Shown in pieces: positions 13,591 to 31,384 of a DNA stretch of 32,342 bases (the stretch's first letter is position 1; each line of letters opens with the position of its first letter). The notes beneath the pieces are model-generated. The model was not told the origin of the DNA. It made no database searches and was given only the letters and a program-made list of their open reading frames with translations. The DNA comes from a virus, in the IMG/VR virus record IMGVR_UViG_3300042935_000445, positions 1-32,342 of that record. The stretch is one strand, 5' to 3'. Both the position numbers and the translations under genes were made by a program.

Positions 13591-13610
13591 ATTAACTAAA
13601 ACAAAAAGAA

Positions 13611-15320
13611 ATGGCTTATTTTAATCATGCTTTCAAGAAAAGCTTCCTGGCAACAGGACCGACACAAACAGCATTCCCTGTTACCCTTCCTAATGGAACT
13701 ACAGTTAATGCTACAACATCTTTAGGTTACCTAACATCAAATGGTGTACCTACTTATGGTTTAAATCAATTATCTGCAATTAGTGTTGCTACTTATGGTA
13801 CGGCTACTACAGCTACTACTGATGGGTACATTGGATGGTTTAACCCAAAAACAAATTTATCAGTTGATATTAATGATGAAGGATTTGCTCCTTGTTGTAA
13901 TTTATATCTTGCTGGTTCAGCAATTTATAACAATGATAAGATTGGTCCTTTAGCAGGTGGTTACCAAGAGACTAATAAGTCTAAAATGGTTAATCCTAAA
14001 TATGTATCTAGATTTTACCAAGTAGATCCATGTGCTCCACAAAACAATGTAATCCACGTAGGTTCTACTTACTGGACTGCAGGTGGTGGTGTATTAATTG
14101 GTGCAATTACTACTCCAGGTACTAACTATACAAATACAACTACAGCTATAACAGTAGAAACTACAACTACTTTAGGAACTGGTTCAGGTTTATTATTATC
14201 AATTACAGTAGCAGCAAATGTTCCAACAGTTGTTGATATTGTTGCTCCAGGTAAAGGATATGCAGTAGGTGATACTGTTACTATCAAAGATACTGATGGT
14301 GGAGCTGGTGATGCAGTATATACAATTTCTGCTAATGGTGTAACTGTATCTCATCCACAAGAAGGATGTGGTATTACTCCAGAATGTTGCAAAGAATTTT
14401 TATGTGGTGAGACATACTCTTTACGTTTAGATGTAAAAGGTTCTCCAGCTTTGAGATTCTTAAATCACAATGCTTATGCAACTATTGATGCATACACAGG
14501 ATGTTGTGCACCTGATTCAATTGCTCCAACTGCAGTTGACTCTACTGAGGTAATGATCTTATGGGCAAATGGTATTGCAAATAATCCAATTATTTCTCCA
14601 TTCATTCAACCAGTTGTACAAGCTGAAGACGGATCATTATTATATGCTCCAGGAACATCGGCTACATTCTTAGCTGCAAATGGTGCAATCACTTGGGACA
14701 ACTATGTATCTCCAGGACACGTAGATGGTGCTTGTGCAGGTTTGATCTTGAATGGTGCTTATGTTGATACTAAATTTGGTGATTGTACATTCCAATTATC
14801 TGACTTCTATGAAAAAGAGCCAGTTAGATTGTATGCATCAGAAGTAGACTTAAATGGTGATCCATGTTTGTTTACAACACTTTGTGTTGTTACTGAGTGT
14901 CAAGGTCTACAAGTTAATGGTTTAGGAGAAACAGTTTTAAGAGATTTGACTATGTCAGAATCTTACAGACAAAACTTCTTAGCAACTGACTTCCGTATCC
15001 GTGAGATTACTCAAGGAAACCAAATTGTTAGTTCTGTTGATAGAAGCGCATTGTACTACAGATATATGTTACAACACAATGTTCCAAGAAATTATAATCC
15101 TTCTGGTACATTTGATGCTGATCAGTACATGTTAGAGATTTTCTCTTTAGCTCCTCTTAACACTTTTGCAACTGATACTTCTGGTTGGTTAAATGCTTGT
15201 GGTGTATGTGAGATCAATGTATTAGAAAGTGCATATGGTTGTGATACAGTATGTGTTGTTCCAATTGCATTCCCTGCTATTCCAGTATACAATCCGTACA
15301 ATACAGTTTCTTGTAACTAA
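13611..15320 (+). CDS. Abundant virion structural protein with inserted beta domain
   Basis: A 569-residue protein expressed as its own unit between a promoter-like element and a terminator, so it is probably abundant. It carries about 20 Cys, often paired (APCCNLY, PECCKEF, TGCCAPD, CGVCEIN). Residues about 158-243 form a Gly/Thr-rich insert (TPGTNYTNTTTAITVETTTT ... APGKGYAVGDTVTIKD) resembling GxGYxxGD beta modules found inside phage surface proteins. The C-terminal third (SYRQNFLATDFRIREITQGN, YRYMLQHNVPRNYNPSGTFD) resembles large-phage structural proteins I recall but cannot name. Candidates are a capsid-surface or auxiliary capsid protein, or a tail component. No signal peptide or membrane segment. 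Confidence 0.75.
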   Translation: MAYFNHAFKKSFLATGPTQTAFPVTLPNGTTVNATTSLGYLTSNGVPTYGLNQLSAISVATYGTATTATTDGYIGWFNPKTNLSVDINDEGFAPCCNLYLAGSAIYNNDKIGPLAGGYQETNKSKMVNPKYVSRFYQVDPCAPQNNVIHVGSTYWTAGGGVLIGAITTPGTNYTNTTTAITVETTTTLGTGSGLLLSITVAANVPTVVDIVAPGKGYAVGDTVTIKDTDGGAGDAVYTISANGVTVSHPQEGCGITPECCKEFLCGETYSLRLDVKGSPALRFLNHNAYATIDAYTGCCAPDSIAPTAVDSTEVMILWANGIANNPIISPFIQPVVQAEDGSLLYAPGTSATFLAANGAITWDNYVSPGHVDGACAGLILNGAYVDTKFGDCTFQLSDFYEKEPVRLYASEVDLNGDPCLFTTLCVVTECQGLQVNGLGETVLRDLTMSESYRQNFLATDFRIREITQGNQIVSSVDRSALYYRYMLQHNVPRNYNPSGTFDADQYMLEIFSLAPLNTFATDTSGWLNACGVCEINVLESAYGCDTVCVVPIAFPAIPVYNPYNTVSCN

Positions 15321-15345
15321 TCAAGTAACTCAATTTTAAAAACAT

Positions 15346-15384
15346 AAAGGGGAGAAGAGTTCTAAACTCCTATCCCCTTTTTTT
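15346..15384 (+). terminator. Intrinsic terminator after the 569-residue gene
   Basis: AAAGGGGA (15346-15353) pairs with TCCCCTTT (15373-15380), with an inner GAGT/ACTC stem (15357-15360 with 15366-15369) separated by a small internal loop, followed by seven T's (15378-15384). It starts 25 bases after the stop and ends 11 bases before the next ATG, so the gene at 15396 must depend on read-through or an initiation site within the hairpin. Confidence 0.88.
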
Positions 15385-15395
15385 ATTAAACACCT

Positions 15396-15938
15396 ATGGC
15401 TAATCACGTATTAAGTTTAGAAGTTCCTACAGTAATGAATACATGTATTCTTACAGTAATGGATACTAGTCAGTATTCAAATTTAATTCCTGTTACTTGT
15501 CCTTACTTAAATATTACAGTTCCTGGTTTTCAACATTCAGTTCAACTAAATGTAGTTCCAGGATTTATTAAGAATGTCACAGCTTGTGATCTTAATTTAC
15601 AAACTAGTAATTGTGGTACTGAATATGTAGGTATTCCAGATGGTATTTATATTATTAAATATAGTGTTTCTCCAAATGATGTTGTATTTGTAGAATACAA
15701 TCATATGAGAATTACAAAAGCATTAAACAGATACTACAATATACTTTGTAGATTAGATGTTGCAGATTGTGATCCACCATTTAAAATTAAACAGAGGTTG
15801 CAAGAACTTAATTTAATTAAAATGTATTTAGAAGCAGCTAAGTCTAAAGTAGAGTTTTGTCATGAACCTCAGAAAGGTATGTCACTCTATAATTATGCAT
15901 TAAAGCTTTTAAATAAAATGGATTGTGTAAATTGTTAA
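15396..15938 (+). CDS. Virion structural protein, crAss-like tail/neck type
   Basis: A 180-residue protein with a beta-rich N-terminal half (HVLSLEVPTVMNTCILTVMD ... VPGFIKNVTACDLNLQTSN) and a helical C-terminal half (FKIKQRLQELNLIKMYLEAA, then KVEFCHEP and YNYALKLLNKMDCVNC). The pattern of a beta sandwich followed by a helical hairpin with scattered Cys and a CVNC end matches small structural proteins I recall near the tail genes of Bacteroidota and crAss-like phages. The PDGIYIIKYSVSPNDVVFVE segment (about 82-101) is typical. It follows the terminator closely. The exact role is unknown. Confidence 0.7.
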   Translation: MANHVLSLEVPTVMNTCILTVMDTSQYSNLIPVTCPYLNITVPGFQHSVQLNVVPGFIKNVTACDLNLQTSNCGTEYVGIPDGIYIIKYSVSPNDVVFVEYNHMRITKALNRYYNILCRLDVADCDPPFKIKQRLQELNLIKMYLEAAKSKVEFCHEPQKGMSLYNYALKLLNKMDCVNC

Positions 15939-15943
15939 ATTAT

Positions 15944-15958
15944 TAAAACCAACAAATA
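15944..15958 (+). promoter_or_regulatory. AAAACCAAC leader before the Cys-cluster gene
   Basis: TAAAACCAAC (15944-15953) followed by AAATA precedes the ATG at 15959, in the same position relative to the start as the identical ten bases at 8521-8530. Inferred to be a non-Shine-Dalgarno initiation element. Confidence 0.42.
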
Positions 15959-16150
15959 ATGGCAAAATGTTCAAATTGTAAAGCTAACCTATCTTGTGGA
16001 TGTCAGAAGAGAAAAGCAAAAGATGGTACATCAACATGTTCAAAGTGTTTAGCTTCTTATGAAGCAAGTCTTGTACAAAAAAATACAATAGTAGAAGTAT
16101 CCCAGACAGATCAAAATGTATGGGGAGCAAATAGATATAAAAAAGGTTAA
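15959..16150 (+). CDS. Small Cys-cluster (zinc-ribbon-like) protein
   Basis: A 63-residue protein, MAKCSNCKANLSCGCQKRKA then DGTSTCSKCLASYEASL. The CxxC, CxC and CxxC pairs (C4, C7, C13, C15, C26, C29) could form a zinc ribbon or similar metal site. The C..C..NLSCGCQKRKA.DG...C..C...Y arrangement is one I recall from many Bacteroidota phage small proteins. It may be a virion or assembly factor; function is not established. It stops 3 bases before the next ATG, so it is coupled to the large Cys-rich protein. Confidence 0.75.
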   Translation: MAKCSNCKANLSCGCQKRKAKDGTSTCSKCLASYEASLVQKNTIVEVSQTDQNVWGANRYKKG

Positions 16151-16153
16151 CTA

Positions 16154-18052
16154 ATGGCAGTATTTCCCCCACCACCTCCTGGACTTTCAATTGCATGGTA
16201 TGGTTTTGAACCTTGCTGTGGAGGGAATATTTTATACTTTAGATTTGATGGTACAACAAATCCACCAAATGAAGGAATTAACATTTATAATGGACCAGCT
16301 GCTATTGGATATGATCCAATAACAAGTACTTATGTGCCATTAACTAATCAATGTTACAAAATATTTAGGGGTGAAGCTACTAATCCAACCAGTCCTATTG
16401 ATGGATCTAATTATGGTAATCTTTTAGTAGTACCAACAAATTTTGGTATAAACTATACTTGGGACTCAACAACTAATTATGAAACTCCTTGTGGAGATGA
16501 AGTAATTACTTGTCCATCTTGTATTCCAACTTGTTATACACTTTATTCATGTACTGATGCATTTCCACCTATAACTACATCTACTGATTTATCAGCTTAT
16601 GTAAATGGATTTGCACTTATACAAGTAGATGCTGATTTGGGCTTCTCATGCTTTTATATTGTAGAAGCTAACAATTGTGATAACTCAGTAGTTGTTGAAG
16701 TTGATGGAGATACTCCTTGTTCATGTACATGTACATGTTATGAAATAATTGGTACAGCAAAACTAGCTTATATAGATTGTGATGGTAATGAAGTTATCAC
16801 AATGGTTAATGGTTATTGGAAAGACTGTTCATTAGTATATCCTGTAACTAGTCCTAATGCAGGACCTAACTTAACTATTACAAGTTATGGTAATTGTATT
16901 GATGGTCAATGTGAAACACAGTGTTTTGAACTTACAGATTGTGAGGGACTATTAGATCCTATTTATACAACAGCTCAATCATTATTTCCATATTTAACAT
17001 TAGGTCAAACAGTAGTAATTCAAGGATATGATAATTGTTGGACTATATCAGATGTTCTTGAATGTGATTGTGCTATTAATGTAGTGGTTATACAGGGTTA
17101 TGATGATTGTGCAACATGTAATCCAGATCCTAATTATATACTTACTAACTGTGATGACTTAAGTACTACTATATATACTTCATCAGATCTTAGTGCATAT
17201 ACAAATCAAGTTGTAAATCTTGCTCCAGATTGTCCAGGTTGTTGGATTGTGACTGAAGTAAACGGTCCTATTCCATCTGACGTAGCTGTAACTGTTACAG
17301 ATGCATTTGATGATTGTGAAGCTTGTAAGACTACTTATTATAAACTAGAAGATTGTACAGGAATAGAGGATGATATAATAACATCAACAGATTTATCAGC
17401 ATATATTGGATCTATTATAACACTTGAATGGTGTCCTAATACTTGTTGGACAGTATCTCTTTCAGCAACAAGCGCAGGTGCAGGAATCTTAGGAGATATA
17501 TCTAATGACTTTGATACATGTTTAGAATGTCTTAATAGCTTTCCATGTACATGTAGAAGAATAACAAATCATGATGTTGTATCTCATAACTATAATTATG
17601 TAGATTGTGATGGTATAGTGAGAACAATTACAATTTTATCAGGAGAAACATCAGATAGAATTTGTATGGGTATTTTACTTACATCATATGCTACAGATTA
17701 TGTTGAAGTATTTGGAGATTGTACAAATGGTGTTTGCCCTCCTATTGTATATCCTAAGAGATCTTTAAAACCTGGTTATGATACTCCGGCTTGTGAGATA
17801 TGGAAGTATGAACAGATCTCATGTATGGCAGCAGAAGCTTTATATAAACAAGTTCTTGAACTTAGATATGGTATTAGTAATTGTTGTCCTGATGAAGATC
17901 AAAGATATCTTATCCAAAAAGAATTAATAGACTTGAAAGCATTAGTTAATCCTGATTATATATGTGCTACTCCAAGTTGTGGATGTAATACTAGATGTAA
18001 TTGTAGTGGAAATTCTGGATGTGGATGTTCATCAGGTTCTTGCAATTGTTAA
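16154..18052 (+). CDS. Modular Cys-rich repeat virion protein
   Basis: A 632-residue protein with very high Cys content. After a polyproline start (FPPPPPG) and an N-terminal domain (about 10-120), it is built from two repeat types. Type A (four copies: about 127-189, 257-322, 327-391, 395-459) follows Y-x-L-x-D/S-C ... T-x-x-DLSAY ... CWxV ... FDDCxxC. Type B (two copies: about 192-253 and 464-528) follows CTCxxI ... Y-x-DCDG ... GxC-x-x-GxC. A helical segment (YKQVLELRYGISNCC) precedes a Cys/Gly-rich tail (CGCNTRCNCSGNSGCGCSSG). It is probably a tail or surface fibre-type protein with disulphide- or metal-stabilised beta domains. The order A-B-A-A-A-B points to domain duplication. Confidence 0.75.
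   Translation: MAVFPPPPPGLSIAWYGFEPCCGGNILYFRFDGTTNPPNEGINIYNGPAAIGYDPITSTYVPLTNQCYKIFRGEATNPTSPIDGSNYGNLLVVPTNFGINYTWDSTTNYETPCGDEVITCPSCIPTCYTLYSCTDAFPPITTSTDLSAYVNGFALIQVDADLGFSCFYIVEANNCDNSVVVEVDGDTPCSCTCTCYEIIGTAKLAYIDCDGNEVITMVNGYWKDCSLVYPVTSPNAGPNLTITSYGNCIDGQCETQCFELTDCEGLLDPIYTTAQSLFPYLTLGQTVVIQGYDNCWTISDVLECDCAINVVVIQGYDDCATCNPDPNYILTNCDDLSTTIYTSSDLSAYTNQVVNLAPDCPGCWIVTEVNGPIPSDVAVTVTDAFDDCEACKTTYYKLEDCTGIEDDIITSTDLSAYIGSIITLEWCPNTCWTVSLSATSAGAGILGDISNDFDTCLECLNSFPCTCRRITNHDVVSHNYNYVDCDGIVRTITILSGETSDRICMGILLTSYATDYVEVFGDCTNGVCPPIVYPKRSLKPGYDTPACEIWKYEQISCMAAEALYKQVLELRYGISNCCPDEDQRYLIQKELIDLKALVNPDYICATPSCGCNTRCNCSGNSGCGCSSGSCNC
16532..17737 (+). repeat. Alternating type A and type B domain repeats
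   Basis: Diverged tandem coding repeats inside the 632-residue protein. Type A copies lie at about 16532-16720, 16922-17119, 17132-17326 and 17336-17530; type B copies at about 16727-16912 and 17543-17737. They are evident in the protein (TSTDLSAY, SSDLSAY and STDLSAY in three A copies; DCDG in both B copies) more than in the DNA, so the duplication is not recent. Confidence 0.65.
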
Positions 18053-18078
18053 TAAATTTTTGTATATTATAGTAATAG
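18053..18078 (+). promoter_or_regulatory. Promoter-like GTATATTATAGTA element
   Basis: AAATTTTTGTATATTATAGTA sits in the 33-base gap after the Cys-rich gene, 24 bases (element start 18062) before the ATG at 18086. Twelve bases (TATATTATAGTA) match the element before 13611 exactly. A T-run precedes it, as in the other copies. Confidence 0.58.
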
Positions 18079-18085
18079 AAGAAAT

Positions 18086-19738
18086 ATGAAGCCACTTAAT
18101 TATGATAACTCACCTTGTAGCCCAATCTCAAGCAATTGTGTAGTTTGGCAAGGACCTAATATTCCTTGTATTAAATTGTGTACAGGAGATACAATTTCAG
18201 ATGTAATAGAAAAATTAGCAACTGAACTATGTATAGTATTAGATACATTGAATGTAACTAATTATGATCTTTCATGCTTTAACTTAACAGCATGTTCACC
18301 AAATGATTTTCAAGCTCTTATTCAATTTCTAATTGAACAGATCTGTGCATTACAAACAGAAGTAGCAATATTAGCTGATCCAGCAATAAGCCCAATTGTA
18401 AATCAAACTAAATCTACAGGAGCAGATACTCTTGTAACAGTAGCACCTTGTTTTGTAATTGGTACTACTACAGTTATGACAGTATCAGAATATGCACAAG
18501 CTATTGGTATTAGAGTATGTTCATTAATTACTCAAATTGCTAACATTGAGAATAACATTACAAATTTAGATATAAGAGTGACAGCTCTTGAAGGGGCTCC
18601 TGTCCCAACATTTACTGTACCTTCATTTACTTTAGGTTGTTCAATTGATACATTAGCTTCTGGAACAAGTCAATTTATAAATGTTATTTTAGAAAGTTTT
18701 ATAAATGATGTTTGGTGTAACTATTATTATAATGTAACAGGTACATCTTCAGATTTATCTGCTGCTGTTAATCAAATTTGTATAACAGATTTAGATTTAC
18801 AATTAACAACCGGTACTTCATTTTCTACAAATCCATTATGGATTCAATCTGGAAGTTATTCTACTGTTGCTGATGCTATAAATAATCTTTGGATTGCATT
18901 ATGTGATGTATATAATTATAGTTCAACATTTTCAATTTCAGTAGCTGATACTGCAACTATAGATCTTAATAATACTGCTAATGTAATTACTGCAAAAATA
19001 GTAGATACAGGTTGGGTAGATCTTAATGGGTTTGCTTATTATGGAGTTGGTGTTGATAAACCTAAATGTAGAAGAATTGGTAATGCAATTCATTTTAAAG
19101 GATCAGTATATGTTCCATTAGAAAATCCTACTTCTCCAGGAGCAGTTGTTCCCTTAGCTTCAACAAGTTCATATAACTCAGTAACAGGTAATCAAACTTG
19201 GTCAGGTGTTGGTGGATGTACAATTAATGCTAATGGAGCAATACAATTTAACAATGGAGCATCTGTTGTACCAAATGCAGTAACTGTTGATAATTTTGAT
19301 GATGTATATAGTTTAGGTTGGATTGTAGCTACAAGACCTATAGATGTAAATGCAACATATGGTACTTCATTAACGGCAGTGTTTGCAATATCTATTAGTA
19401 CAGGAAAAAGTCTTCAAGCTCAGATGTTACATGATATAGAAATTACTACTACAAGAGGTTCTGGATTCCAAGGTAATTCACCTTTGAGATTTATTACAAG
19501 TAATGTAAGAGTAGGTGAATATCTTCCTAACTATATTGGTACAGGCACAGATATACACAATGCTCCAAGCAATGCTAACTTCCCATTACTATCAGATACT
19601 TTTAATGCTACGTGGCCATTTAGCTGTGATGCAGGAAATGAAAATCAAGTAGGAGGATTTAATTTTAGACTAGATGGTTTAATTGCATATTTAGATCCTT
19701 GTAATATAGAAACAGGTTTATCAATAGTTTGTCCATAA
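18086..19738 (+). CDS. Tail fibre / receptor-binding-like protein
   Basis: A 550-residue protein. The N-terminal 100 residues are Cys-rich (NYDNSPCSPISSNCVVWQGP, IPCIKLCTGD) and probably attach it to the virion. A short coiled coil (IANIENNITNLDIRVTALEG, about 151-170) suggests trimerisation, and the rest is beta-rich and Ser/Thr/Asn-rich. The segment DTGWVDLNGFAYYGVGVDKP then KCRRIGNAIHFKGSVYVPL resembles the C-terminal receptor-binding domains of many phage fibre proteins. The gene follows a promoter-like element, so it may be regulated apart from its neighbour. Host specificity is the likely role, inferred from domain layout. Confidence 0.7.
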   Translation: MKPLNYDNSPCSPISSNCVVWQGPNIPCIKLCTGDTISDVIEKLATELCIVLDTLNVTNYDLSCFNLTACSPNDFQALIQFLIEQICALQTEVAILADPAISPIVNQTKSTGADTLVTVAPCFVIGTTTVMTVSEYAQAIGIRVCSLITQIANIENNITNLDIRVTALEGAPVPTFTVPSFTLGCSIDTLASGTSQFINVILESFINDVWCNYYYNVTGTSSDLSAAVNQICITDLDLQLTTGTSFSTNPLWIQSGSYSTVADAINNLWIALCDVYNYSSTFSISVADTATIDLNNTANVITAKIVDTGWVDLNGFAYYGVGVDKPKCRRIGNAIHFKGSVYVPLENPTSPGAVVPLASTSSYNSVTGNQTWSGVGGCTINANGAIQFNNGASVVPNAVTVDNFDDVYSLGWIVATRPIDVNATYGTSLTAVFAISISTGKSLQAQMLHDIEITTTRGSGFQGNSPLRFITSNVRVGEYLPNYIGTGTDIHNAPSNANFPLLSDTFNATWPFSCDAGNENQVGGFNFRLDGLIAYLDPCNIETGLSIVCP

Positions 19739-20416: not shown

Positions 20417-20998
20417 ATGAAGGAATTTAAAAAACCAGATGTAACTGCACCAAGGTATAGACCTAATGCACAGAATATTTTAACAAAAAAGTTCTTTGAA
20501 GATTTTAAAAGTAAACATCCAAAGTATAAGCATGTAGAAAATGCTGAACTTAGAGTAATAATAAAAAAGTTTAATGAGGCATTATTTCAAAATGTTATAG
20601 ACTTTAGAGATGGTATGCAACTACCTGAGTCAATTGGATGGTTGTTTATTGGTACATGTCAAACAAGTAAAAAAACTAATATTGATTTTGCAAAGTCAAA
20701 TAAGTATGGAGTAACAGTAACAAATAAAAATTGGGAGACAGATGGTAAGTTAGCTAAAATTTTCTTTACAAACTATGCACCAAAACATAAAATGAATAAT
20801 AGAGAATTTTGGAAATTTGTTGCATGTAGAAAATTTAAGCGGTCAGTTGCAAAAACATATCCAGAAAACTGGAACACATATGTAGTAGTTGAACCTAATA
20901 GAAAACTTAAACTTACTTATCAAAAATCTTTTTTAAAAGAACTTGCAATTAAGAATGAAAAAAAGAAACTGGAAAGTTATAATGAATTTGACTTATGA
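20417..20998 (+). CDS. Tail/neck structural protein (crAss-like family)
   Basis: A 193-residue basic protein. I chose ATG 20417 because the longer frame from 20378 would begin in the spacer after the terminator, translate the promoter-like element and add an unrelated hydrophobic stretch (MLVSLIFSILIYS). The mature-looking start is MKEFKKPDVTAPRYRPNAQN. The motifs LPESIGWLFIGTCQTSKKTN, GVTVTNKNWETDGKLAKIFF and EFWKFVACRKFKRSVAKTYP recall a conserved structural family of crAss-like phages that lies beside the ring proteins. It is the first gene of a unit reaching the ring and muzzle proteins, and its stop overlaps the next start (ATGA). Confidence 0.68.
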   Translation: MKEFKKPDVTAPRYRPNAQNILTKKFFEDFKSKHPKYKHVENAELRVIIKKFNEALFQNVIDFRDGMQLPESIGWLFIGTCQTSKKTNIDFAKSNKYGVTVTNKNWETDGKLAKIFFTNYAPKHKMNNREFWKFVACRKFKRSVAKTYPENWNTYVVVEPNRKLKLTYQKSFLKELAIKNEKKKLESYNEFDL

Positions 20999-21657
20999 CA
21001 ACAATTGGTGAAGTTATTTCAAGAGTTAGAAATACTCTAAAAGCAGTTAAGGAAGATGCCTTTCTTACTGATAGAACTATCTATTCTTCTTTATTAAAGT
21101 ATTCTAAGACTTTAGTTAAGAGAGAAGATAATCAGTTTAGACTTATGAAAATAAGTTCTATATTTCAAGTATTACCATATATTGAACTAATTGATGTAGA
21201 TAAAGTAGAAGCTGGATGTATAGGAATTTATTCAGGTTGTTATTTTAAAAGATCAAAAGAAAAGTTACCTACTATTCTTGATGGTATGTTTGGTCCTATT
21301 ATACGCACAGTATCTTCAATTGATGGCACTATCGAAATGTTTAGAACAGATCCCGGTACATGGGTATCAATGACTAAAACAACTACATTTAAGTACAATA
21401 AGAATAGATACTTTTGGTATCTTGATGGTTATATCTACTGTCCTAATATTGATTGGGAAGCAATAAGAATGGAAGCTATCTTTGAAGGTCAAGTAGAATC
21501 TTGTAATTCAGATGATTGTTTAATTAAACAAGATCAACCCTTTGCTCTTCCTGAATACTTGTTTTCAGAAGTAGAACAATTTGTAATAAAAGAACTCACT
21601 ATGACTATGCAAGTACCAGGTGATGGTCCTGATGATAGTCAAAATACTTTTAGATAA
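20995..21657 (+). CDS. Tail ring protein candidate (crAss-like)
   Basis: A 220-residue protein opening with TTIGEVISRVRNTLKAVKED and AFLTDRTIYSSLLKYSKTLV, then YIELIDVDKVEAGCIGIYSG, KLPTILDGMFGPIIRTVSSI, DPGTWVSMTKTTTFKYNKNR and YFWYLDGYIYCPNIDWEAIR. This ordered set closely resembles a structural (ring) protein conserved across crAss-like phages, as I recall it; rings of such proteins extend the portal into a short tail. The start overlaps the previous stop by four bases (ATGA), and the stop overlaps the next ATG (TAATG), showing tight coupling and probably a fixed stoichiometry of ring subunits. Confidence 0.75.
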   Translation: MTTIGEVISRVRNTLKAVKEDAFLTDRTIYSSLLKYSKTLVKREDNQFRLMKISSIFQVLPYIELIDVDKVEAGCIGIYSGCYFKRSKEKLPTILDGMFGPIIRTVSSIDGTIEMFRTDPGTWVSMTKTTTFKYNKNRYFWYLDGYIYCPNIDWEAIRMEAIFEGQVESCNSDDCLIKQDQPFALPEYLFSEVEQFVIKELTMTMQVPGDGPDDSQNTFR

Positions 21658-22715
21658 TGGACTTTAATTATACATTACGTTATAGAACATTTGATCAACT
21701 GTTAGAAGATGTAACAGTTGACTTAAGTTCATTTGCTCTTGAAAATATGATTGAGCCTCAGCAGTTAATTAAATTAGCTAAGAAAATTAATTATGATTTA
21801 GGTTTAAGAATTAATCAACAAAAAGAAGTTCTGTTAGATGTTACCCACGGTAGAGTTAAATTACCAGATGATTTTTATACATTTAATTTTGGAATGATCT
21901 GTGGAGAATTTACTGAACATATGGGTTATACTGGTTCAGTAGGAGGGACTAATATTCAAGAAGTTCCTTATGTAGAAACACCAGCTAATGTTGATTTATG
22001 TGCACCACCTACAGTTAATTGCTCTACATGCAATGCAAACCCATGTAATCATACTGCAGCATGTCCAGACAACACATGTCCTGCTACATGCGCTCCTAAT
22101 GTTATTCCTACTGAATATAATCCATTACTTCCATATGGGGATACTTGTACAAGACCTAGAGTCTTTATGAATTGTAAAGGAGATCAGTATGAACTTATTC
22201 AAGTTATAAGTAATCCTGGAATAACAAGAGTTTATGCAAATCTTATTTCATTAAGAATGAAGGCAAGTCAAGAAATAGAATGTGACTGTCCAAATCTTTA
22301 TATTAATGCAGCTAATGAAGGTTGGATTAAAGGAGGCTTTTTATTTACTACATTTCAAACAGGTAAAGTGTATTTAAACTATCAAGGTCAAATGGAAGAT
22401 GATGAGGGTAACTTATTGGTTCCAGATCACGATCTTCTTAATGAGTATTATGAGTATGCTTTTAAAGCTAGAATAATGGAAAATTTATATCTTAACGGAG
22501 AGGATGTAGCACAAAGAATGCAACTTATTGAACAAAGACTTAAGTCTGCTAGAAACAATGCCTTGAGTGTAGTTAATACACCAAACTTTAGAGAGTTTGA
22601 AAATATTTGGGCTGCAAATAGAAAAGCAATGTACGGTAAATTTTATAATATGTTTATGTCACATTCACCAAATAATGCAGCATATAGAAATTATGGTAAT
22701 CCGAGAGTTATATAA
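21657..22715 (+). CDS. Tail ring/stabilisation protein with Cys-rich insert
   Basis: A 352-residue protein with a conserved N-terminal part (YRTFDQLLEDVTVDLSSFAL, EPQQLIKLAKKINYDLGLRI, VTHGRVKLPDDFYTFNFGMI) like a crAss-like ring-family protein that partners the preceding gene product. Residues about 115-145 hold an insert with seven Cys (C115, C122, C125, C130, C136, C141, C145). The second half is beta-rich then helical (LVPDHDLLNEYYEYAFKARI, MENLYLNGEDVAQRMQLIEQ), typical of the C-terminal tail-ring helices. It starts inside the previous stop codon (TAATG). The call is supported by family resemblance and position; the detailed role is inferred. Confidence 0.72.
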   Translation: MDFNYTLRYRTFDQLLEDVTVDLSSFALENMIEPQQLIKLAKKINYDLGLRINQQKEVLLDVTHGRVKLPDDFYTFNFGMICGEFTEHMGYTGSVGGTNIQEVPYVETPANVDLCAPPTVNCSTCNANPCNHTAACPDNTCPATCAPNVIPTEYNPLLPYGDTCTRPRVFMNCKGDQYELIQVISNPGITRVYANLISLRMKASQEIECDCPNLYINAANEGWIKGGFLFTTFQTGKVYLNYQGQMEDDEGNLLVPDHDLLNEYYEYAFKARIMENLYLNGEDVAQRMQLIEQRLKSARNNALSVVNTPNFREFENIWAANRKAMYGKFYNMFMSHSPNNAAYRNYGNPRVI

Positions 22716-22721
22716 TTAGTT

Positions 22722-25700
22722 ATGGCAAAGCAAGACGGACAAGATCAAAGTTCTCAAACTTCAAGAATTTTTATAAAGGGATTAAATAAAGATTCTGATC
22801 CACTTTTTGTACAAGAAGGTATGTGGACTCATGCTCGTAACACAACCAATAATACAGCAGAAGGGGATGTAGGTACTTTGTCAAATGAAGAATCAAATTA
22901 TTTATGTGCACAAACAGGTCAGACACTTAATAGTACTCATACATATATAGTAGGTGCAATTAATTTATTTGCAGATAAATGGATTATTTATACTGCTGCT
23001 TATGATGCATCTAATACAGTTTCTATTAATTCAGAGATAGGTTTATTTGAATCTGATCTTTGTTTGTATAGACCTATTGTACAAGATCCTTGTTTAAACT
23101 TTAGTAAGTTAGATTTAATAACAGGAGCTGCAAGAAGAAAGCAAGATTGTTCTTGGGGTGTATACTGGGCTGATGGTTTAAATCCAGACAGATATTTAAA
23201 TGTAGGGGATCCCCAGTTATGGCCTGATAATAGTTTTTCTTGGATAGGTAATAACTATTATAGTAATGGTGTTATTGTAGATTTTCTTTGGCCAGGAGTT
23301 CAATGGGAAGAAAAATGTTTATTAATATCATCTGGTACAAATCCTAATAATCCAGCTACTTGTTATGATTGTCATCCAATTAATAAACTTGATTGTGATG
23401 CAACAAGACTTGCTAGATTGACTACTACACCTTGTGTAGAAGTAGTGCTTGGTGATCAATCAGGAACTCTTGAGTCAGGATCTTATGCAGCAACTATTGC
23501 TTATACAATAAATCAACAAAGGGTAACTAACTATTTTTCAATGGGTTACCCACAACCCGTTTTTACTGAGATACCAAATCAAGGATCTATTAAAGTTAAA
23601 GTAAATGCTGATGATGCTCACTTTGATGAATATGAATTAGTTATTATTGCAAGAATTAATGATGCTACACTTTCTGTTAAAATAGGTAATTACTCTAGTA
23701 GAATTACAGAAATTACATTAGATCAAATTAAAGCTACTTTAGCAGTTGTACCTGAGACAGAGTTATTAATAAATAATCCTGAGATTGAAAAATCAGAACA
23801 AATTGCAGAAGTAAATAATTATTTACTTAGAGTAGCTCCTACTACAAGATTTGATTTTAATTATCAACCATTAGCTAATAAGATACAAGCTGAATGGGTA
23901 GCTGTGGAATATCCTGAAGATTATTACATCAAGGGTGGTAAAAATACAACATACTTAAGAGATGAAGTTTATGCATTCTTTATACGTTGGATTTATAATA
24001 CAGGAGATAAGTCTGCATCATATCATATTCCAGGAAGAGCTGCTGAAGAGTACTTTCCAAATGTATATGAAGATGGTACTTACTCAGATATAAATACATT
24101 ACAAGGAGATACTTTACTATATCAAACTATCAATACAGCTTCTGTAACTTCATTAACTAATATTACTTTGCCTGATGGAGGAGTTGAAGTAGCTAGTGGT
24201 AAAATGGGGTACTGGCAATCATCAGAAAGTTATCCAGATAACCAAGCTGAAGTTTGGGATTCAAATTTTCATTGTTGGACACAGACAGTTTTACCAAATG
24301 GTGATCCAGATCTTAGATATAATCTTTGTGGTACATTTATTAGACATCATAAGATGCCTGATAATATTACAAACTATAATGGTATACCAAATAGTATAAC
24401 CAATCACTTTGTTAAAAAGAATAACAAATTTTATATTAGAAATTTAGGAGTAAGATTTAAAAATATTATTCTTCCAAAAGATAATGATGGTAATGAGATA
24501 CCTGGTATTGTTGGTTATGAAATTTTAAGAGGTTCAAGATGGGGTAATAAAAGTATTCTTGCAAAAGGAATGATTAATAACTTTAGAGACTATGAAATTT
24601 TAGGTACATCTGTAACTAACTTACAAAATTCTAAGATAACAGGTCTTTATGCAAACTATCCTTTTAATGCAATACGTCCACAGTTAAATACATCTGACCC
24701 TAATAATGATAACTATAATCTAAATGATCCTTATATCTTTGCTCATGATAGTGATAACAATAAGTATAATCAATCAGTACCACAAGATATAGTTTCTTTC
24801 CATTCTCCGGATACTAGTTTTAATAATCCAGCTTTAACTACATCAGAAGTTAAATTATATGGACAACTTATAGGAACAGCAGAACAACAGTTTATTGAAC
24901 CAAGTCTTCATCCTGAATTTAAACTCTTAGGTAATACAGCTTTAGTATGGTCTGTAATTGGAGGTTTGCTTAATGTTTTATTAAATGCATTAAAAGATAG
25001 AAATATATCAACTAACACTGCAATTTATAATGAACCATATGCAAAATATCCAGTTTGGACTGTTACAACTCCAGGTGCTGGCGGTACAACAGGTGTTACA
25101 GCAAATAATGATTTAAGTGCTAATATTGTTGCAGCTTCTGCATGGAATGGTTTTAATAGTGCTTATACTACTTATTTAAGTACAGGCGGTTCATTGTTAG
25201 AAGCTTTAGGTGTTGCTCCAATAACTTTAGATGAAATTTGGAAGACTACATCTGAGACATTAAACAATGGTGGTTTATATACACCTGTAACATTGCAAGA
25301 TGCTCTTAATGGATATGCACAACTTGCAGCTATAGATAATGCATTTATTTCAGCTGTTGCAACTACATTAGGAATTGGTAATACAATTAGTCAAATAGCA
25401 TTTTTCTTTTTAGAAGGAGCACAAGCTACAGTAGATATACTTTATACTATTGCTAGATATAGACAATATGCTCTAGAACAAATTGGACATGGTGAATATG
25501 ATTCAATATCACCTCCAAATAATGCTGCTAGAAAAAGATTTAATATGGCTTTTGGAACATATGTGTATGATTCAATACAAGATATTCCAGAATATCAAAG
25601 TGGCGGAAATACTATTAGATATAGAATTAATAATACTAAAAGACCTAAGTTAGTAGTAGTAAGAACAACTGATGCTCAAGGTAATAGTAGAGGTCCTAAT

Positions 25701-28106
25701 TATATTGTAGATAGTGGTGGTCAGTATATTGATAATTCACTTATGACTTTAAGTGGTGCTGTAACTACACATGGTCCAGAAGTTAATTATAATAATGATG
25801 CAAAAACAGTTGCTTTTAGAAATTCAATTGCAAGTCACTATGCTGGTTTAAAGTTTAGACTTGAAAATCAATATGGTCAACTAAGAAACATTAATCAAGT
25901 TGTGATAACGGCTTGTGAACAAGTAATTGATTATGCTAATATCCAAACATCTTCTTATGGATTAACTTGTCCTACAGGAACACAGTTTCAATATAAGATT
26001 CCTTTAACAGAAGTAATTTTTGGAGGTGATACTTATATAAATAGGTTTACAGAAAAGAATATTATGTTGTTCTTTTATGATTGGTTATATGGTGTGCCTA
26101 ATGGTACTGAGTATAATTACTATTTAAATCAAATGATTCCTTCGCCAAGATTTTGGGTAAATAGTGAACCTTGGGATATTACTGAGTTAAATGTTACAAA
26201 CATTCAAGACTTATTAGCTGGTAACTTAACTGGTTCAGGTCCATTGCCAACATCTTACTATGATTTAGATTCTACACATTATAATCCTAACAATGGTAAC
26301 TTTGGTTTCTTTACTGGTTTTGTATCTCCAAGAAATGGTTACTTCTATACAGGAGCCCATGGTATTAGAGATTTCTTTGTAGAGTCTGATGTATTAGTAG
26401 ATTTTAGAAGTAGAGGTGTATTTGATTATCAAAAGTTCTATAGTAAATATATTTTTACAAACTTAGAGATTCTATTTGATATGAATCCAGATATAATTAC
26501 AGCAGGTAACTTCTATAATTATAACTATTCATTTAGTGCTAACAAGTTCTTTAATCAATATATCCAAGGAGGAGTTTTACAGAATCCAAACTATGACCCT
26601 CAAGTATCTTTATTATGTTATACATACTATCCTAATAGAGTTTACTATTCTCTATATCAAAAAGAAAGAGTATATGCTGATAACTGGTTTATATTCTTAT
26701 CATTAAATTATGCTGAGTTTAAAAGTAAAATTACTAGTGTAAAGAACTTTGCTAAAACTGGTATGTTTGTTACTTTTCAAGATGATGCTCCATTGCTTTA
26801 TCAAGGTGTTGATACTTTACAATTAGCAGATAGTGGTACAAAAGTTACTGTAGGTGACGGAGGTTTGTTTACACAAGCTCCTCAAAATATTATAGCATCA
26901 GATAGAACGTATGAGTATGGTTCTTCACAAAGTAGATATGGAGTAATTTCTACTCCAGCTGGTCTTTTCTATATATCTCAGAATCAAGGTAAGATATTTG
27001 CATTTAGACAAGGTCTAGAAGAAATATCTCAATCTGGAATGAAATGGTGGTTTAATCAATTCTTACCATATAAGTTAACTGAAGATTTTCCAGACTATCC
27101 CCATACTGATAATCCTGTAGCAGGAGTAGGTTGTTCTGCAAGTTATGATAATCAAAATAGTATATTGTTTTTTTCTAAAAAAGATTATAAGTTAAAAACG
27201 GAATATCTTACATCAGTTACATACAGTGAAAATACTGATACTTTCTTTTTTGAAAATGCTGTAGGTTTTAAAACAGGATTTAAAATAGATAGTGACTATG
27301 CTAAACTTTTCTTTGATGATGCTTCCTGGACAATAAGTTATGATCCCAAAATGCAGTACTGGTTAAGTTTTCATGATTGGCATCCAAGTATCTATCTTCC
27401 AAATAAAGGTAATTTTTCAACAATAGTTAAAAATGGTATTTGGAAACATGGTTATGCATGTAATGATTTTTGTAATTTCTATGGAGAGCAATATCCTTTT
27501 GAAATTGAGTTACCATTTATTACTGGACAGAACATAACAACATTAAAAAGCTTTGAGTATTACTTAGAATGTTACAGAAGAGATACTAATTACTGTATAG
27601 ATCAGTTTCATGTATTAGATTATAACTTTGATCAAGCTGTAGTATATAACTCAGAACAAGTTTCTGGTTATCTAAATCTTAATATCTTTCCTAAAAATAA
27701 TGTTACTCTTAGTCAGCAATATCCTAAACTGAACCAATCTAATCTTCAGTCTTTTGATATCTTATTTTCTAAAGAAGAACAAAAATATAGATTTAATCAG
27801 TTCTGGGATATTACTAGAAATAGAGGAGAGTTTCCAAATGGATCTGGTTATCCACCAACAGGTCAGTTAATACCAGATACAACTGTATTATTAGGTAACT
27901 ATCAAGAAAATCATATATGGATAACAGAACCAAATGGCTATGTTAAAAATCTAAATCAAACTTCTTTAGATTATGCTAAACCTCAAATGCAACATAAGAA
28001 GTTTAGACACTATATTAATTTCTTGAATCTATCTAAAGCAGATTCTAGAAATACAAATATGATATTAAGAATTATCAATACTAAAAATCAATATTCACCA
28101 AGGTAA
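22722..28106 (+). CDS. Muzzle/stabilisation-like giant tail protein
   Basis: A 1794-residue protein, the largest in the window. The N-terminus (SRIFIKGLNKDSDPLFVQEG then MWTHARNTTNNTAEGDVGTL) matches the gm-x-x-DssP...y-x-x-a-x-N start of crAss-like muzzle/stabilisation proteins as I recall them. So do YGVISTPAGLFYISQNQGKI (about 1400-1425), WTISYDPKMQYWLSFHDWHP (about 1535-1554), NFSTIVKNGIWKHGY, and CNFYGEQYPFEIELPF (about 1583-1598). Such proteins cap the short tail and face the cell envelope. A region near 741-910 has two hydrophobic segments (VWSVIGGLLNVLLNAL; ISQIAFFFLEGAQATVDILY) that interrupt the beta-rich body. The TAA overlaps the next ATG, linking it to the SET-HAD protein. Confidence 0.78.
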   Translation: MAKQDGQDQSSQTSRIFIKGLNKDSDPLFVQEGMWTHARNTTNNTAEGDVGTLSNEESNYLCAQTGQTLNSTHTYIVGAINLFADKWIIYTAAYDASNTVSINSEIGLFESDLCLYRPIVQDPCLNFSKLDLITGAARRKQDCSWGVYWADGLNPDRYLNVGDPQLWPDNSFSWIGNNYYSNGVIVDFLWPGVQWEEKCLLISSGTNPNNPATCYDCHPINKLDCDATRLARLTTTPCVEVVLGDQSGTLESGSYAATIAYTINQQRVTNYFSMGYPQPVFTEIPNQGSIKVKVNADDAHFDEYELVIIARINDATLSVKIGNYSSRITEITLDQIKATLAVVPETELLINNPEIEKSEQIAEVNNYLLRVAPTTRFDFNYQPLANKIQAEWVAVEYPEDYYIKGGKNTTYLRDEVYAFFIRWIYNTGDKSASYHIPGRAAEEYFPNVYEDGTYSDINTLQGDTLLYQTINTASVTSLTNITLPDGGVEVASGKMGYWQSSESYPDNQAEVWDSNFHCWTQTVLPNGDPDLRYNLCGTFIRHHKMPDNITNYNGIPNSITNHFVKKNNKFYIRNLGVRFKNIILPKDNDGNEIPGIVGYEILRGSRWGNKSILAKGMINNFRDYEILGTSVTNLQNSKITGLYANYPFNAIRPQLNTSDPNNDNYNLNDPYIFAHDSDNNKYNQSVPQDIVSFHSPDTSFNNPALTTSEVKLYGQLIGTAEQQFIEPSLHPEFKLLGNTALVWSVIGGLLNVLLNALKDRNISTNTAIYNEPYAKYPVWTVTTPGAGGTTGVTANNDLSANIVAASAWNGFNSAYTTYLSTGGSLLEALGVAPITLDEIWKTTSETLNNGGLYTPVTLQDALNGYAQLAAIDNAFISAVATTLGIGNTISQIAFFFLEGAQATVDILYTIARYRQYALEQIGHGEYDSISPPNNAARKRFNMAFGTYVYDSIQDIPEYQSGGNTIRYRINNTKRPKLVVVRTTDAQGNSRGPNYIVDSGGQYIDNSLMTLSGAVTTHGPEVNYNNDAKTVAFRNSIASHYAGLKFRLENQYGQLRNINQVVITACEQVIDYANIQTSSYGLTCPTGTQFQYKIPLTEVIFGGDTYINRFTEKNIMLFFYDWLYGVPNGTEYNYYLNQMIPSPRFWVNSEPWDITELNVTNIQDLLAGNLTGSGPLPTSYYDLDSTHYNPNNGNFGFFTGFVSPRNGYFYTGAHGIRDFFVESDVLVDFRSRGVFDYQKFYSKYIFTNLEILFDMNPDIITAGNFYNYNYSFSANKFFNQYIQGGVLQNPNYDPQVSLLCYTYYPNRVYYSLYQKERVYADNWFIFLSLNYAEFKSKITSVKNFAKTGMFVTFQDDAPLLYQGVDTLQLADSGTKVTVGDGGLFTQAPQNIIASDRTYEYGSSQSRYGVISTPAGLFYISQNQGKIFAFRQGLEEISQSGMKWWFNQFLPYKLTEDFPDYPHTDNPVAGVGCSASYDNQNSILFFSKKDYKLKTEYLTSVTYSENTDTFFFENAVGFKTGFKIDSDYAKLFFDDASWTISYDPKMQYWLSFHDWHPSIYLPNKGNFSTIVKNGIWKHGYACNDFCNFYGEQYPFEIELPFITGQNITTLKSFEYYLECYRRDTNYCIDQFHVLDYNFDQAVVYNSEQVSGYLNLNIFPKNNVTLSQQYPKLNQSNLQSFDILFSKEEQKYRFNQFWDITRNRGEFPNGSGYPPTGQLIPDTTVLLGNYQENHIWITEPNGYVKNLNQTSLDYAKPQMQHKKFRHYINFLNLSKADSRNTNMILRIINTKNQYSPR

Positions 28107-31100
28107 TGAAAAAAGTTAAAGCCGGAAAGTCTAAGATTCATGGTAATGGATTAATAGCAGATGAACCAATTAGAAGAGGAGATGTAATAGAACTAGTTCA
28201 TACTATTAGAGAAATTGAACCGGGTGTGAAAAAAACAACTCCTACATTACTTGGTAGAAATTATAATCATTCTGAAGAGCCTAACTCTATGAATGTTATA
28301 GATGGTGATAACAGATATTTAGTAGCTTTAAAAGAAATTGAAGTTGGTGGAGAAATTACTACTGACTATAGAAACAATCCAGATTTAGAACAACCTGATT
28401 CTTTTACTAGCAATGATAACTATGTTTCATTTGACTATGATGATACTCTAACTACACCAGAAGGTTTTAAGTTAGCTAAACAAATGGTTAAGGATGGAAA
28501 CAATCTTTATGTTATTACAGCAAGAGATAAGATGTCTCCTCAAATGATTGAGAGAGCTGAGGCTGCAGGTATCCCAAAAGAAAATATTATACTAGCTGGA
28601 TCTGATGAACAGAAAGTTAAGATAGTAAAAGATAATAATATTAGCAAACACATAGATAATAAAGAATCTGTTATAAAAGCATTAGGAAAAACTGGAGAAT
28701 TATTTAATCCAGGTAAGTATCCTAATTTAAAAGCTGACTTTATTGAAATGGATTTATCAGATGAGGATCTTAATCAACTTAAGAAAGGTGGTTTTATTAT
28801 TGATCAATATCCAGATGGAGGCATTGTAGAATATAATGGTTATAGATATAGAAAAGATAATAGTGGAAATTGGATATTTGCTGATTCTGGTGCACCTGTA
28901 ACTGATAAGATGGTGATATATAAATTACCTTATGAAGGCAAACCTGTTGGATCACCTGTAGTACAGGCAGCACCTAAACCAAAACCTATATCTACAGTTA
29001 CAAAACAACAGCAATTAGAAACAATTAAAAACTCTCCTGTAATTGCAGATCAAAGAAAAGCAAATGAATTACAAGATGCAATAAGAAATGAAAACGTATA
29101 TTTTCCTAAAGGAGAACCAGCAGAAGATGAGCCTGGAGGTGTAGAAGGTGCTATCAATTCAGCATTGGGTTATCCAATGGCTAAAGCAGCTCTATCTTCT
29201 GAGTTTGCTTCAAATGAAGGACAGGTTGACAATTATAGACATGCTAATGCAGGAAGATATACTGCAGAAGCAATTAAAAATATGACAGGTAATATACCTT
29301 ATCTATCTGATGCAGCAGCTATTATAGGTGCTAATGCTTTAGGGTTAGGACATGAAGTAGGTTCTTTTTTTACAAACAGTGATGATACTAGACCTTGGAC
29401 ATCAAAGTTAAAAGAGTCTGGAGAAGACATGTATAATAACTTTATTGGAACTACTATTGGTGTAAGTGATATGCCATCAGTAGAAAAAACAGATAAACTA
29501 TTAAATCTTTCTTATACTAATCAACTACCTGATGGTTATGTTAAAGATCCTAGAGCTCCAAAAAATGTTCCTAATAATATGTATTTTAAACATGGCCCTA
29601 ATGATCCTGGAAAATATAAGCCAAGATATCCAGATGGTGGTCAAACAAGACCTGTTCAAGGTATGGCAAAACCTCTTGCACCCTTAGCAATAAGACAAGA
29701 ACAAGTTAAAGTTTTAAAAAATTCTCCAAAAGTTGCTGATCAAAAAAAATACAAAGCAGTTCAAGATGAAGTAAAAGCTAAAGCAGCAATACAAAAAGCA
29801 TCTAAGCAATTAGATGAATTACAAAAAGATGCATTACCTCAACATGAACAACCATTAGTTGCACAAGATTGGATTTGGACCCTACCTATGATGGGAGGAT
29901 CAGCAATGAAGAGTGCTGGTACAGCTATTGCAGATGGTATGGGTGCAGTAGGTACAAAGGTTATGCCTTATATTACAGGAGCATTAGAAACTTCAATACC
30001 AGGAATGGCATCTATTCCAGGTGCTACAGTAGGTAATGCTATTGCATCTGGTTTTGCAACTGATGCTATAGTAAATAGATTACCAGAAGGAGTTACTCAA
30101 CTTAATAATGGACAGTATATAGATGCAACTGGAAATATTTTAACAGGTGTACTTGATGTAGCTGGAGCAGGTATGATGTCCCCAATGTATCAAGGAGCTA
30201 AATCAACAGCATCAGAACTTGCTAGATTTTTTGAAGGAGTACCTAAAGAATTACCTGGTTCACCTAATTCAAAGTTTTTTAATACTCTTTCAAATTCTGA
30301 GATTCCACAAATAAATCCACAAACAGGATTACTTCAAGTAAATAATACTACTTCATTAAGTAGTGTATTGCCTAGAACATTTAAAGAAACATATATTCCA
30401 GATTTTAAAAGTGCGGAAGGTTTATCTGAAGATGCTATTCCTTATCTTTTGCCTCAACAAGAATTGATGACAAGAGCACCTTGGAGATATCTAAGTAAAG
30501 ATCAAGAAATAATGAATAGTTTTAAATCAGGTATGCGTGCTCAAGAACGTCCTGTAGAAATTCCTAAAGAGTTTAATACTCAAGAAGATATTATGGCTAG
30601 AGCTTTAGGCAAACCATTACCTGAAAGAGCTTCATTAGAAAGTTTAAAACCTAAAATCTATTATGATATAGATGGTAATGTTATAGATGATCCTTTAAAA
30701 TCTGGTTTTGATGCCAACTTTTTAACTAGACCTTTAACTCCATTTACTAAAAATGAGTTAACAACATTGCCTAACAAAAATTTAAAATATAGAAAAATTG
30801 GTAATAAAGCTGGATTACAAGATTTAATTAATAAAGGTGGAGCACAAGCTCCTGCACCAATGAGAATGAAATCAGGATTAACAGCAGATACACCATTTTT
30901 TGGAATGGGAAAAAAACCGAGTGAAGATTATAAAGGTATATTTGCAGTTGAGTTAAAACCTGATAATTCTAAATATAACTGGTCATCAAGAGTTGCTGGA
31001 ACAGATAATTATGGTGTAGCACCATTTGATAAAGTTACAGGTAGGTCTATTAAAAACATTCCTCTTGAAGATTTAAATGTTTATAGAAAAAAATTCTTAA

Positions 31101-31384
31101 GTAATAACTATAAAAAACTAGATCCTAATAATTTAGAAGCAGGTTTAAAATATGCTCAAGCTCAAGTACTTGCTGAACAAGCTTATAAATGGGGAATAAG
31201 AGGAGTAACTGCTGATCAAATATTTAATGATGGTGAATATAGAAAACAATTACAAGAAGTGATATCTAATAAACTTATAGATAATAAAAAAGAAGGAGGA
31301 TCTTTAAACTATATGGTGAAAGAACTTACTCAAGAAGAAATAGAAGAATATAGAAAAGGTGGTTGGATAGTAGAAGACTACTAA
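28106..31384 (+). CDS. SET domain-HAD domain-cargo fusion protein
   Basis: A 1092-residue fusion. Residues 1-95 are a SET methyltransferase domain: KSKIHGNGLIA opening, NHSEEPN at 54-60, and YLVALKEIEVGGEITTDY ending at Y88, the usual catalytic Tyr position. Residues 104-197 are a HAD-type hydrolase: DYDDT at 110-114 (acidic D110 and D112), T138 in YVITAR, K170, and HIDN at 182-185. After an NGYRYRKDNSGNWIF beta segment come two related helical blocks (302-329, 531-560). A Gly/Ala-rich hydrophobic region (about 594-700) could insert in membrane. A C-terminal domain (YRKIGNKAGLQDLINKGG ... YKGIFAVELKP) is of unknown fold. KGG motifs occur at 227-229, 1068-1070 and 1083-1085. An ejected virion enzyme is the favoured guess. 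Confidence 0.72.
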   Translation: MKKVKAGKSKIHGNGLIADEPIRRGDVIELVHTIREIEPGVKKTTPTLLGRNYNHSEEPNSMNVIDGDNRYLVALKEIEVGGEITTDYRNNPDLEQPDSFTSNDNYVSFDYDDTLTTPEGFKLAKQMVKDGNNLYVITARDKMSPQMIERAEAAGIPKENIILAGSDEQKVKIVKDNNISKHIDNKESVIKALGKTGELFNPGKYPNLKADFIEMDLSDEDLNQLKKGGFIIDQYPDGGIVEYNGYRYRKDNSGNWIFADSGAPVTDKMVIYKLPYEGKPVGSPVVQAAPKPKPISTVTKQQQLETIKNSPVIADQRKANELQDAIRNENVYFPKGEPAEDEPGGVEGAINSALGYPMAKAALSSEFASNEGQVDNYRHANAGRYTAEAIKNMTGNIPYLSDAAAIIGANALGLGHEVGSFFTNSDDTRPWTSKLKESGEDMYNNFIGTTIGVSDMPSVEKTDKLLNLSYTNQLPDGYVKDPRAPKNVPNNMYFKHGPNDPGKYKPRYPDGGQTRPVQGMAKPLAPLAIRQEQVKVLKNSPKVADQKKYKAVQDEVKAKAAIQKASKQLDELQKDALPQHEQPLVAQDWIWTLPMMGGSAMKSAGTAIADGMGAVGTKVMPYITGALETSIPGMASIPGATVGNAIASGFATDAIVNRLPEGVTQLNNGQYIDATGNILTGVLDVAGAGMMSPMYQGAKSTASELARFFEGVPKELPGSPNSKFFNTLSNSEIPQINPQTGLLQVNNTTSLSSVLPRTFKETYIPDFKSAEGLSEDAIPYLLPQQELMTRAPWRYLSKDQEIMNSFKSGMRAQERPVEIPKEFNTQEDIMARALGKPLPERASLESLKPKIYYDIDGNVIDDPLKSGFDANFLTRPLTPFTKNELTTLPNKNLKYRKIGNKAGLQDLINKGGAQAPAPMRMKSGLTADTPFFGMGKKPSEDYKGIFAVELKPDNSKYNWSSRVAGTDNYGVAPFDKVTGRSIKNIPLEDLNVYRKKFLSNNYKKLDPNNLEAGLKYAQAQVLAEQAYKWGIRGVTADQIFNDGEYRKQLQEVISNKLIDNKKEGGSLNYMVKELTQEEIEEYRKGGWIVEDY
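29009..29095 (+). repeat. Internal repeat copy 1 (KNSPVIADQ block)
   Basis: Residues 302-329 (QQLETIKNSPVIADQRKANE...) match residues 531-560 of the same protein in the pattern Q-x-x-x-x-x-KNSP-x-x-ADQ-x-K-x-x-x-x-QD. The copies are diverged, so this is an old duplication. It is a protein-level repeat of unknown role, possibly a helix-capping or binding element. Confidence 0.6.
29696..29785 (+). repeat. Internal repeat copy 2 (KNSPKVADQ block)
   Basis: Second copy, QEQVKVLKNSPKVADQKKYK followed by AVQDEVKAKA. It is preceded by DGGQTRPVQGMAKP, a segment similar to the start of the 249-residue Lys/Pro-rich protein, so the module (GG, RPVQG, KP linker, then helix) may be shared between virion proteins. 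Confidence 0.6.

Follow-up and report, generated by a model that had tools for sequence, protein, structure and literature searches.

A SET domain heads a multidomain protein encoded at the cargo position of a crAss-like phage

The DNA analyzed here, referred to as the window, is a 32,342-base fragment of a viral contig (IMG/VR record IMGVR_UViG_3300042935_000445). It encodes a terminase, a portal, a major head protein, tail ring proteins 2 and 1 and a muzzle protein, and is therefore the virion module of a crAss-like phage. Its named relatives, based on muzzle and terminase, include Flavobacterium and Cellulophaga phages, the gut phage csAssE-Sib and Leptolyngbya phage Lbo-JY46. A muzzle protein akin to that of the window is encoded at 13602-18566 of a phage recorded from Leptolyngbya, a cyanobacterium (L040, PP438436.1), whereas the other relatives with a named host infect Bacteroidota. 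Further genes of the window include one for a 91-aa basic protein (10215-10490) that matches DUF6321 (PF19846, 61.6 bits), a Lys-rich ORF of 249 aa among the head genes (10509-11258), of which about 50 residues (125-178) are shared with a cargo protein of L002-L004, and a stretch at 13027-13545 that matches DUF5856 (PF19174) and PHROG 858, "starvation-inducible transcriptional regulator". The muzzle gene is followed directly by an ORF for a 1092-aa protein, and the A of its ATG is the last base of the muzzle ORF. This protein consists of a SET domain, a putative HAD-type domain, a 24-aa tag, a module shared with a relative, a Gly/Ala-rich region, a C-terminal region and a second copy of the tag, in this order (Table 1).

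Table 1. Features of the muzzle-cargo region of the window
Feature	Position	Strand	Basis or remark
Tail ring protein 2 (PF25702)	20995..21657	+	Pfam
Tail ring protein 1 (PF24228)	21657..22715	+	Pfam
Muzzle protein (PF25731), upstream neighbour of the SET gene	22722..28106	+	Pfam
Cargo-position multidomain protein, 1092 aa	28106..31384	+	ATG overlaps muzzle stop
SET domain, residues 1-97	28106..28396	+	Pfam PF00856 over cut-off; family profile; AF2/Foldseek
GxG AdoMet-binding motif, G13-N-G15	28142..28150	+	Invariant in 12-sequence alignment
N54-H55 of the SET knot motif NHSEEPN (P59-N60)	28265..28270	+	Invariant in 12- and 15-sequence sets
Catalytic tyrosine Y88 (EITTDY)	28367..28369	+	Invariant in 12- and 15-sequence sets
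Putative minimal (capless) HAD-type domain, residues 101-205	28406..28720	+	AF2, Foldseek, motifs
Cargo tag copy 1, residues 212-235 (FIEMDLSDEDLNQLKKGGFIIDQY)	28739..28810	+	42.3 bits; similarity to L007 stops here
Short repeat copy A, residues 291-330	28976..29095	+	Related to residues 529-570
Module, residues 296-515	28991..29650	+	44% identity to L011 cargo protein
Short repeat copy B, residues 529-570	29690..29815	+	Related to copy A
Gly/Ala-rich hydrophobic region, ~residues 585-700	29858..30205	+	Read from sequence
Cargo tag copy 2, residues 1069-1092 (YMVKELTQEEIEEYRKGGWIVEDY), exact C-terminus	31310..31381	+	40.9 bits
Next gene, truncated at contig end	31443..32342	+	Homologue (57%) directly after the L007 SET gene

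The ORF at 28106-31384 starts with a real SET domain. Residues 51-88 match Pfam PF00856 with 28.2 bits (cut-off 22.4, E 2.7e-6), and six other crAss-like proteins encoded at the same gene position also score above the Pfam SET cut-off, with 36-44 bits, some of these scores being the sum of two stretches. A profile built from 12 phage SET domains identified vSET of PBCV-1 as the top match in the PDB (E 3.6e-14), followed by MLL and other SET methyltransferases. An AlphaFold2 (AF2) model of residues 1-240 was obtained from 14 sequences (pLDDT 82), and its best 50 PDB matches in Foldseek were all SET proteins, again with vSET first (TMt 0.71). The motifs that a first-pass annotation had read from the DNA, G13-x-G15, N54-H55 with P59-N60, and E83 preceding the catalytic Y88, are all present, and the SET call is firm. 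With respect to the nearest relative, dN/dS (NG86) is ~0.09 for the SET domain and ~0.22 for the HAD-type domain, which indicates purifying selection. Due to this low ratio and the retrieval of vSET by the family profile, a chance resemblance can be dismissed.

Invariant positions of 15 cargo SETs include the second Gly of GxG, both residues of NH, one Glu and the terminal Tyr, and a (D/E)(L/M)E.P stretch is conserved after this Tyr. The module is very short, with 85-97 aa compared to 119 aa in vSET, and its SET-I region is strongly reduced, most so in the L067/L072 group. As the SET-I insert helps to form the substrate groove, its scantness suggests that the activity or range of the domain may be reduced. 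The same reduction would fit a degenerate, non-enzymatic beta-clip module that serves in binding, for instance to sense AdoMet or to dock to the portal or the tail, and the beta-clip relative SAF shows a weak match to L006. However, such a role is unlikely, as the catalytic positions are invariant even across divergent members, the domain is under purifying selection and its top match, vSET, is an active minimal enzyme. The SET fold and the location of the gene are well supported; methyltransferase activity and the substrate proposed below are what we infer for it.

The adjoining residues 101-205 likely adopt a HAD fold. The HAD motifs noticed in the first-pass annotation were recovered as D110-x-D112-x-T114, T138/R140, K170 and D184, and the call is based on these motifs and the predicted fold, with weak statistics. 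The motifs are retained in three relatives with identity down to 52%, one of which has a Ser for Thr138, and the HIDN that forms motif IV in the window has HFDD as its counterpart in L011. Folded alone by AF2 the domain reached a pLDDT of 90.8, and Foldseek matched the model to KdsC/YrbI phosphatases and the phosphatase of T4 polynucleotide kinase with modest significance (best E 3e-3). The best viral matches of the two-domain SET-HAD model include HAD-like proteins of uncultured phages and others named XkdF. Pfam gave only sub-threshold matches for the residues of this domain; as no curated HAD profile matched significantly, it is labelled "HAD-type" and no HAD subfamily is assigned. A search of PDB sequences with a profile of the HAD segment matched repeat proteins only, which were dismissed as spurious.

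The remaining residues, about 890, had been described as low-complexity sequence. This applies to the Gly/Ala-rich residues ~585-700, which might have a membrane-active role, but residues 296-515 form a shared module and residues 212-235 and 1069-1092 are the tags. A search for relatives of residues 502-1092 found none. An ART-like module suspected at ~858-1068 by motif resemblance was not supported by iterative profiles, and a Pfam match to YflT (E 0.04) was dismissed as below cut-off. No domain from the published list of polyvalent proteins (PMC5512222) was recognized in the window protein.

The two tag copies resemble YIELDLTPEEIEKYVKGGYIVEEL. At a threshold of 15 bits or more the tag was detected in 54 of the 70 distinct ORFs at the first cargo position and in 9 of the 48 at the second, counts that are biased to these proteins as the profile was seeded from some of them. 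It was absent from all 202 upstream ORFs, all 67 muzzle ORFs and the reversed ORFs, and this absence is unaffected by the seeding. Among the 67 hits in ORFs having a stop, 20 are located at the C-terminus. The tag is thus restricted to the two genes downstream of the muzzle in crAss-like phages (window; L046-L125), and we propose it as the leading candidate for a signal of packaging or docking. The second cargo proteins of two near-identical phages (L002, 18167-20785; L004, 18143-20689) share the N-terminal part and the C-terminal tag and differ in the middle, where a recent module swap has occurred; one of the two harbors an HExxH-like stretch (VSHEYGHTSLY).

Neither a tblastn search of the phage collection with the whole 1092-aa protein nor a scan of viral contigs with residues 1-198 gave a match, so that an alignment-based scan was needed to reach relatives. 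Among the best 80 of 468 muzzle relatives in viral contigs, complete post-muzzle genes encode between ~300 and 2383 aa. A SET domain is present in 8 of 51 non-redundant post-muzzle genes drawn from the muzzle search, and in 14 of 57 when genes reached by the window or SET searches are included. It is mostly N-terminal in the cargo proteins and occasionally internal behind a leader. Pfam analysis of 44 first-cargo proteins revealed Phage_lysozyme in 11 and SET in nine, whereas Amidase_2, Phage_lysozyme2, the metallopeptidase DUF6782, ART-PolyVal, SLT, GH19 and PARP occur in one or two each. The window protein and its counterpart in L007 share ~83% identity through residue 236, and beyond this point identity falls to chance level. 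A quick muzzle tree contains at least eight changes of SET presence, three of them forced by well-supported branches, with gains and losses indistinguishable on this tree. Among close muzzle relatives the post-muzzle gene is a hypervariable mosaic.

This distribution bears on a substrate that had been suggested for the SET domain, the small, Lys-rich virion proteins encoded at 9.6-12.3 kb, whose methylation during assembly would tune DNA packing or virion stability. The proteins are real (ORFs at ~9.8-12.3 kb with 14-21% Lys), and a precedent for SET domains acting on basic DNA-binding proteins exists in the archaeal Go1-SET, which methylates the chromosomal protein MC1-alpha (PMC3980110). However, nothing links them to the SET domain, most close relatives lack it, and repeated changes of its presence on the muzzle tree would not be expected if core virion proteins depended on it for maturation. 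This patchy occurrence in a minority of relatives is more in line with an accessory module directed at the host than with an obligatory step of virion maturation, and methylation of the phage's own virion proteins is considered quite unlikely.

The position of the gene points to the virion. In the window and all SET-bearing crAss-like relatives the cargo gene begins at the muzzle stop codon, and in nearly all muzzle relatives the start of the post-muzzle gene overlaps this stop. The corresponding genes of phi-crAss001 encode, in order, the ring (Gp43), the muzzle (Gp44) and the cargo proteins C1 (Gp45) and C2 (Gp46), and both cargo proteins are present in the virion (PMC10172136). An HU/IHF-like (nucleoid-type) gene of phi-crAss001 (L126, 3473-4060) is located just before the ring and muzzle genes, beside the cargo cluster. 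Sequence comparison revealed no similarity of the window protein to phi-crAss001 gp45/gp46, and SET, HAD and tag were not found in gp45-gp47; equivalence to cargo C1 is therefore positional, and we do not classify the window protein as homologous to gp45. Experimentally, the closest tie to the virion is module homology with Cellulophaga phage phi4:1. All genes downstream of the muzzle in the phi4:1 stretch examined are annotated as virion proteins by MS/MS, and gp041 and gp040 match, in parts, first-cargo proteins of the clade of the window (E 5e-10, 1e-6 and 9e-5), these matches involving modules of the family other than SET, HAD or tag. The first-pass annotation had regarded the SET and HAD domains as fused to a virion-type protein and delivered with the virion. 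Gene position and the phi4:1 homology agree with this and suggest that the window protein is packaged in the virion and ejected.

Since structural clusters can host genes of other kinds, the ORF might also encode an ordinary intracellular phage protein beside the virion genes, with SET and HAD acting after late expression. This is very unlikely given the overlap of start and muzzle stop in nearly all relatives, the confinement of the tag to the post-muzzle gene pair, the homology of modules to phi4:1 virion proteins annotated by MS/MS and the phi-crAss001 cargo proteins that occupy the same place.

As a virion-borne cargo protein, the product of the ORF at 28106-31384 would belong to the polyvalent-type multidomain proteins, its gene being the first for cargo in a crAss-like phage. 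It is probably packed in the virion, in the capsid and/or the tail barrel, and would be ejected ahead of, or together with, the DNA. Early in infection the N-terminal SET module would then methylate one or more lysines in a protein of the host, for which a transcription protein or one associated with nucleic acids is the most likely choice. Such a target is plausible, as the viral vSET represses host transcription and Go1-SET acts on a chromosomal protein. The HAD module may dephosphorylate a second target, such as a phosphoprotein, a nucleotide or the end of a nucleic acid. Located at module boundaries and at the C-terminus, the tag may serve as a packaging or docking signal and mark the joint for module swaps. 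This account of a polyvalent-type protein that is carried in the virion, ejected with the DNA and methylates a host protein by its SET domain is considered fairly probable; it builds on the SET fold, the conserved catalytic residues, the gene position, the shuffling of modules, the specificity of the tag to the gene pair and purifying selection. The chances are about even for a bolder statement, namely that crAss-like phages carry a protein lysine methyltransferase and eject it into the bacterium, where it modifies a host protein within minutes of the onset of infection, as a bacterial-virus counterpart of vSET encoded in a tag-marked, plug-and-play gene.

To our knowledge, nearly all work on protein methylation by SET domains concerns eukaryotes and a few bacteria that use it on their eukaryotic hosts, and bacteriophage SETs are nearly undescribed in the open-access literature searched. 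The sole phage SET mention found there is one listed ORF of phage Ps15 (PMC9025141). The same literature did not yield any account of SET domains in polyvalent proteins or crAss-like cargo proteins, and a term search for SET and HAD in the text of PMC5512222 found neither. As far as this literature goes, SET appears to be new as a polyvalent/cargo module. The first-pass suggestion of a new phage protein-modification system is thus to be narrowed to the SET module, as injected polyvalent proteins have been described since 2017 (PMC5512222). A SET module in a gene for packaged proteins means that crAss-like phages may inject a protein-modifying enzyme alongside their DNA. If true, the recurrence of this module in the gene for virion cargo in an abundant order of phages would make bacterial lysine methylation a step of host takeover or counter-defence. 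The mosaic cargo gene provides a direct catalogue of what may be delivered to the host cell by crAss-like phages; the 24-aa tag is a testable candidate packaging signal.

Among known SET proteins, vSET of PBCV-1 (A612L; PDB 3kma/1n3j) is the closest solved structure, the best profile match and likewise a minimal viral SET. It is, however, a stand-alone 119-aa enzyme of an algal virus that acts on histone H3K27, whereas the SET of the window is a shorter module of a large bacteriophage protein. Stand-alone phage SETs (PHROG 28741, 34170) share the same SET core with ~30-40% identity to the cargo SET, but are single-domain proteins of ~95-120 aa encoded outside the crAss-like cargo gene. Stand-alone SET proteins of this size were observed in other phage contigs (L015-L035; PHROG 28741 where tested), and a scan of bacterial genomes revealed four small ones with little information on origin. 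A database entry of 971 aa, A0A218ML49, named SET domain-containing protein of an uncultured virus, may be a member of the cargo SET family. The archaeal Go1-SET (PMC3980110), compared here by its published description, shows that a SET of prokaryotes can have a chromosomal protein as its target, but is cellular and not virion-borne. KdsC/YrbI and the T4 polynucleotide kinase phosphatase share the predicted fold and DxDxT with the HAD-type domain of the window, which differs in comprising only ~105 aa and matches them with modest significance.

The crassvirus cargo proteins C1 and C2 (PMC10172136) occupy the same place after the muzzle, but have no detectable sequence similarity to the window protein and lack SET, HAD and tag. 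The closest parallel in organization is provided by the polyvalent proteins (Iyer et al. 2017, PMC5512222), which, like the cargo family, combine several unrelated enzymatic domains per polypeptide, are encoded among virion genes, are predicted to be ejected with the DNA and are recombined between members. Their protein-modifying modules include peptidases, ARTs, kinases and acetyltransferases (PMC5512222), and ART-PolyVal and a metallopeptidase family are present in sibling cargo proteins of the window. Polyvalent proteins are recognized by at least two domains of disparate activity and by a gene among the late virion genes; the window protein joins a SET and a HAD-type domain, and its gene lies among late virion genes. 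The two groups differ in that crAss-like phages are unmentioned in PMC5512222, and in that modules of the cargo family are marked by the 24-aa tag.
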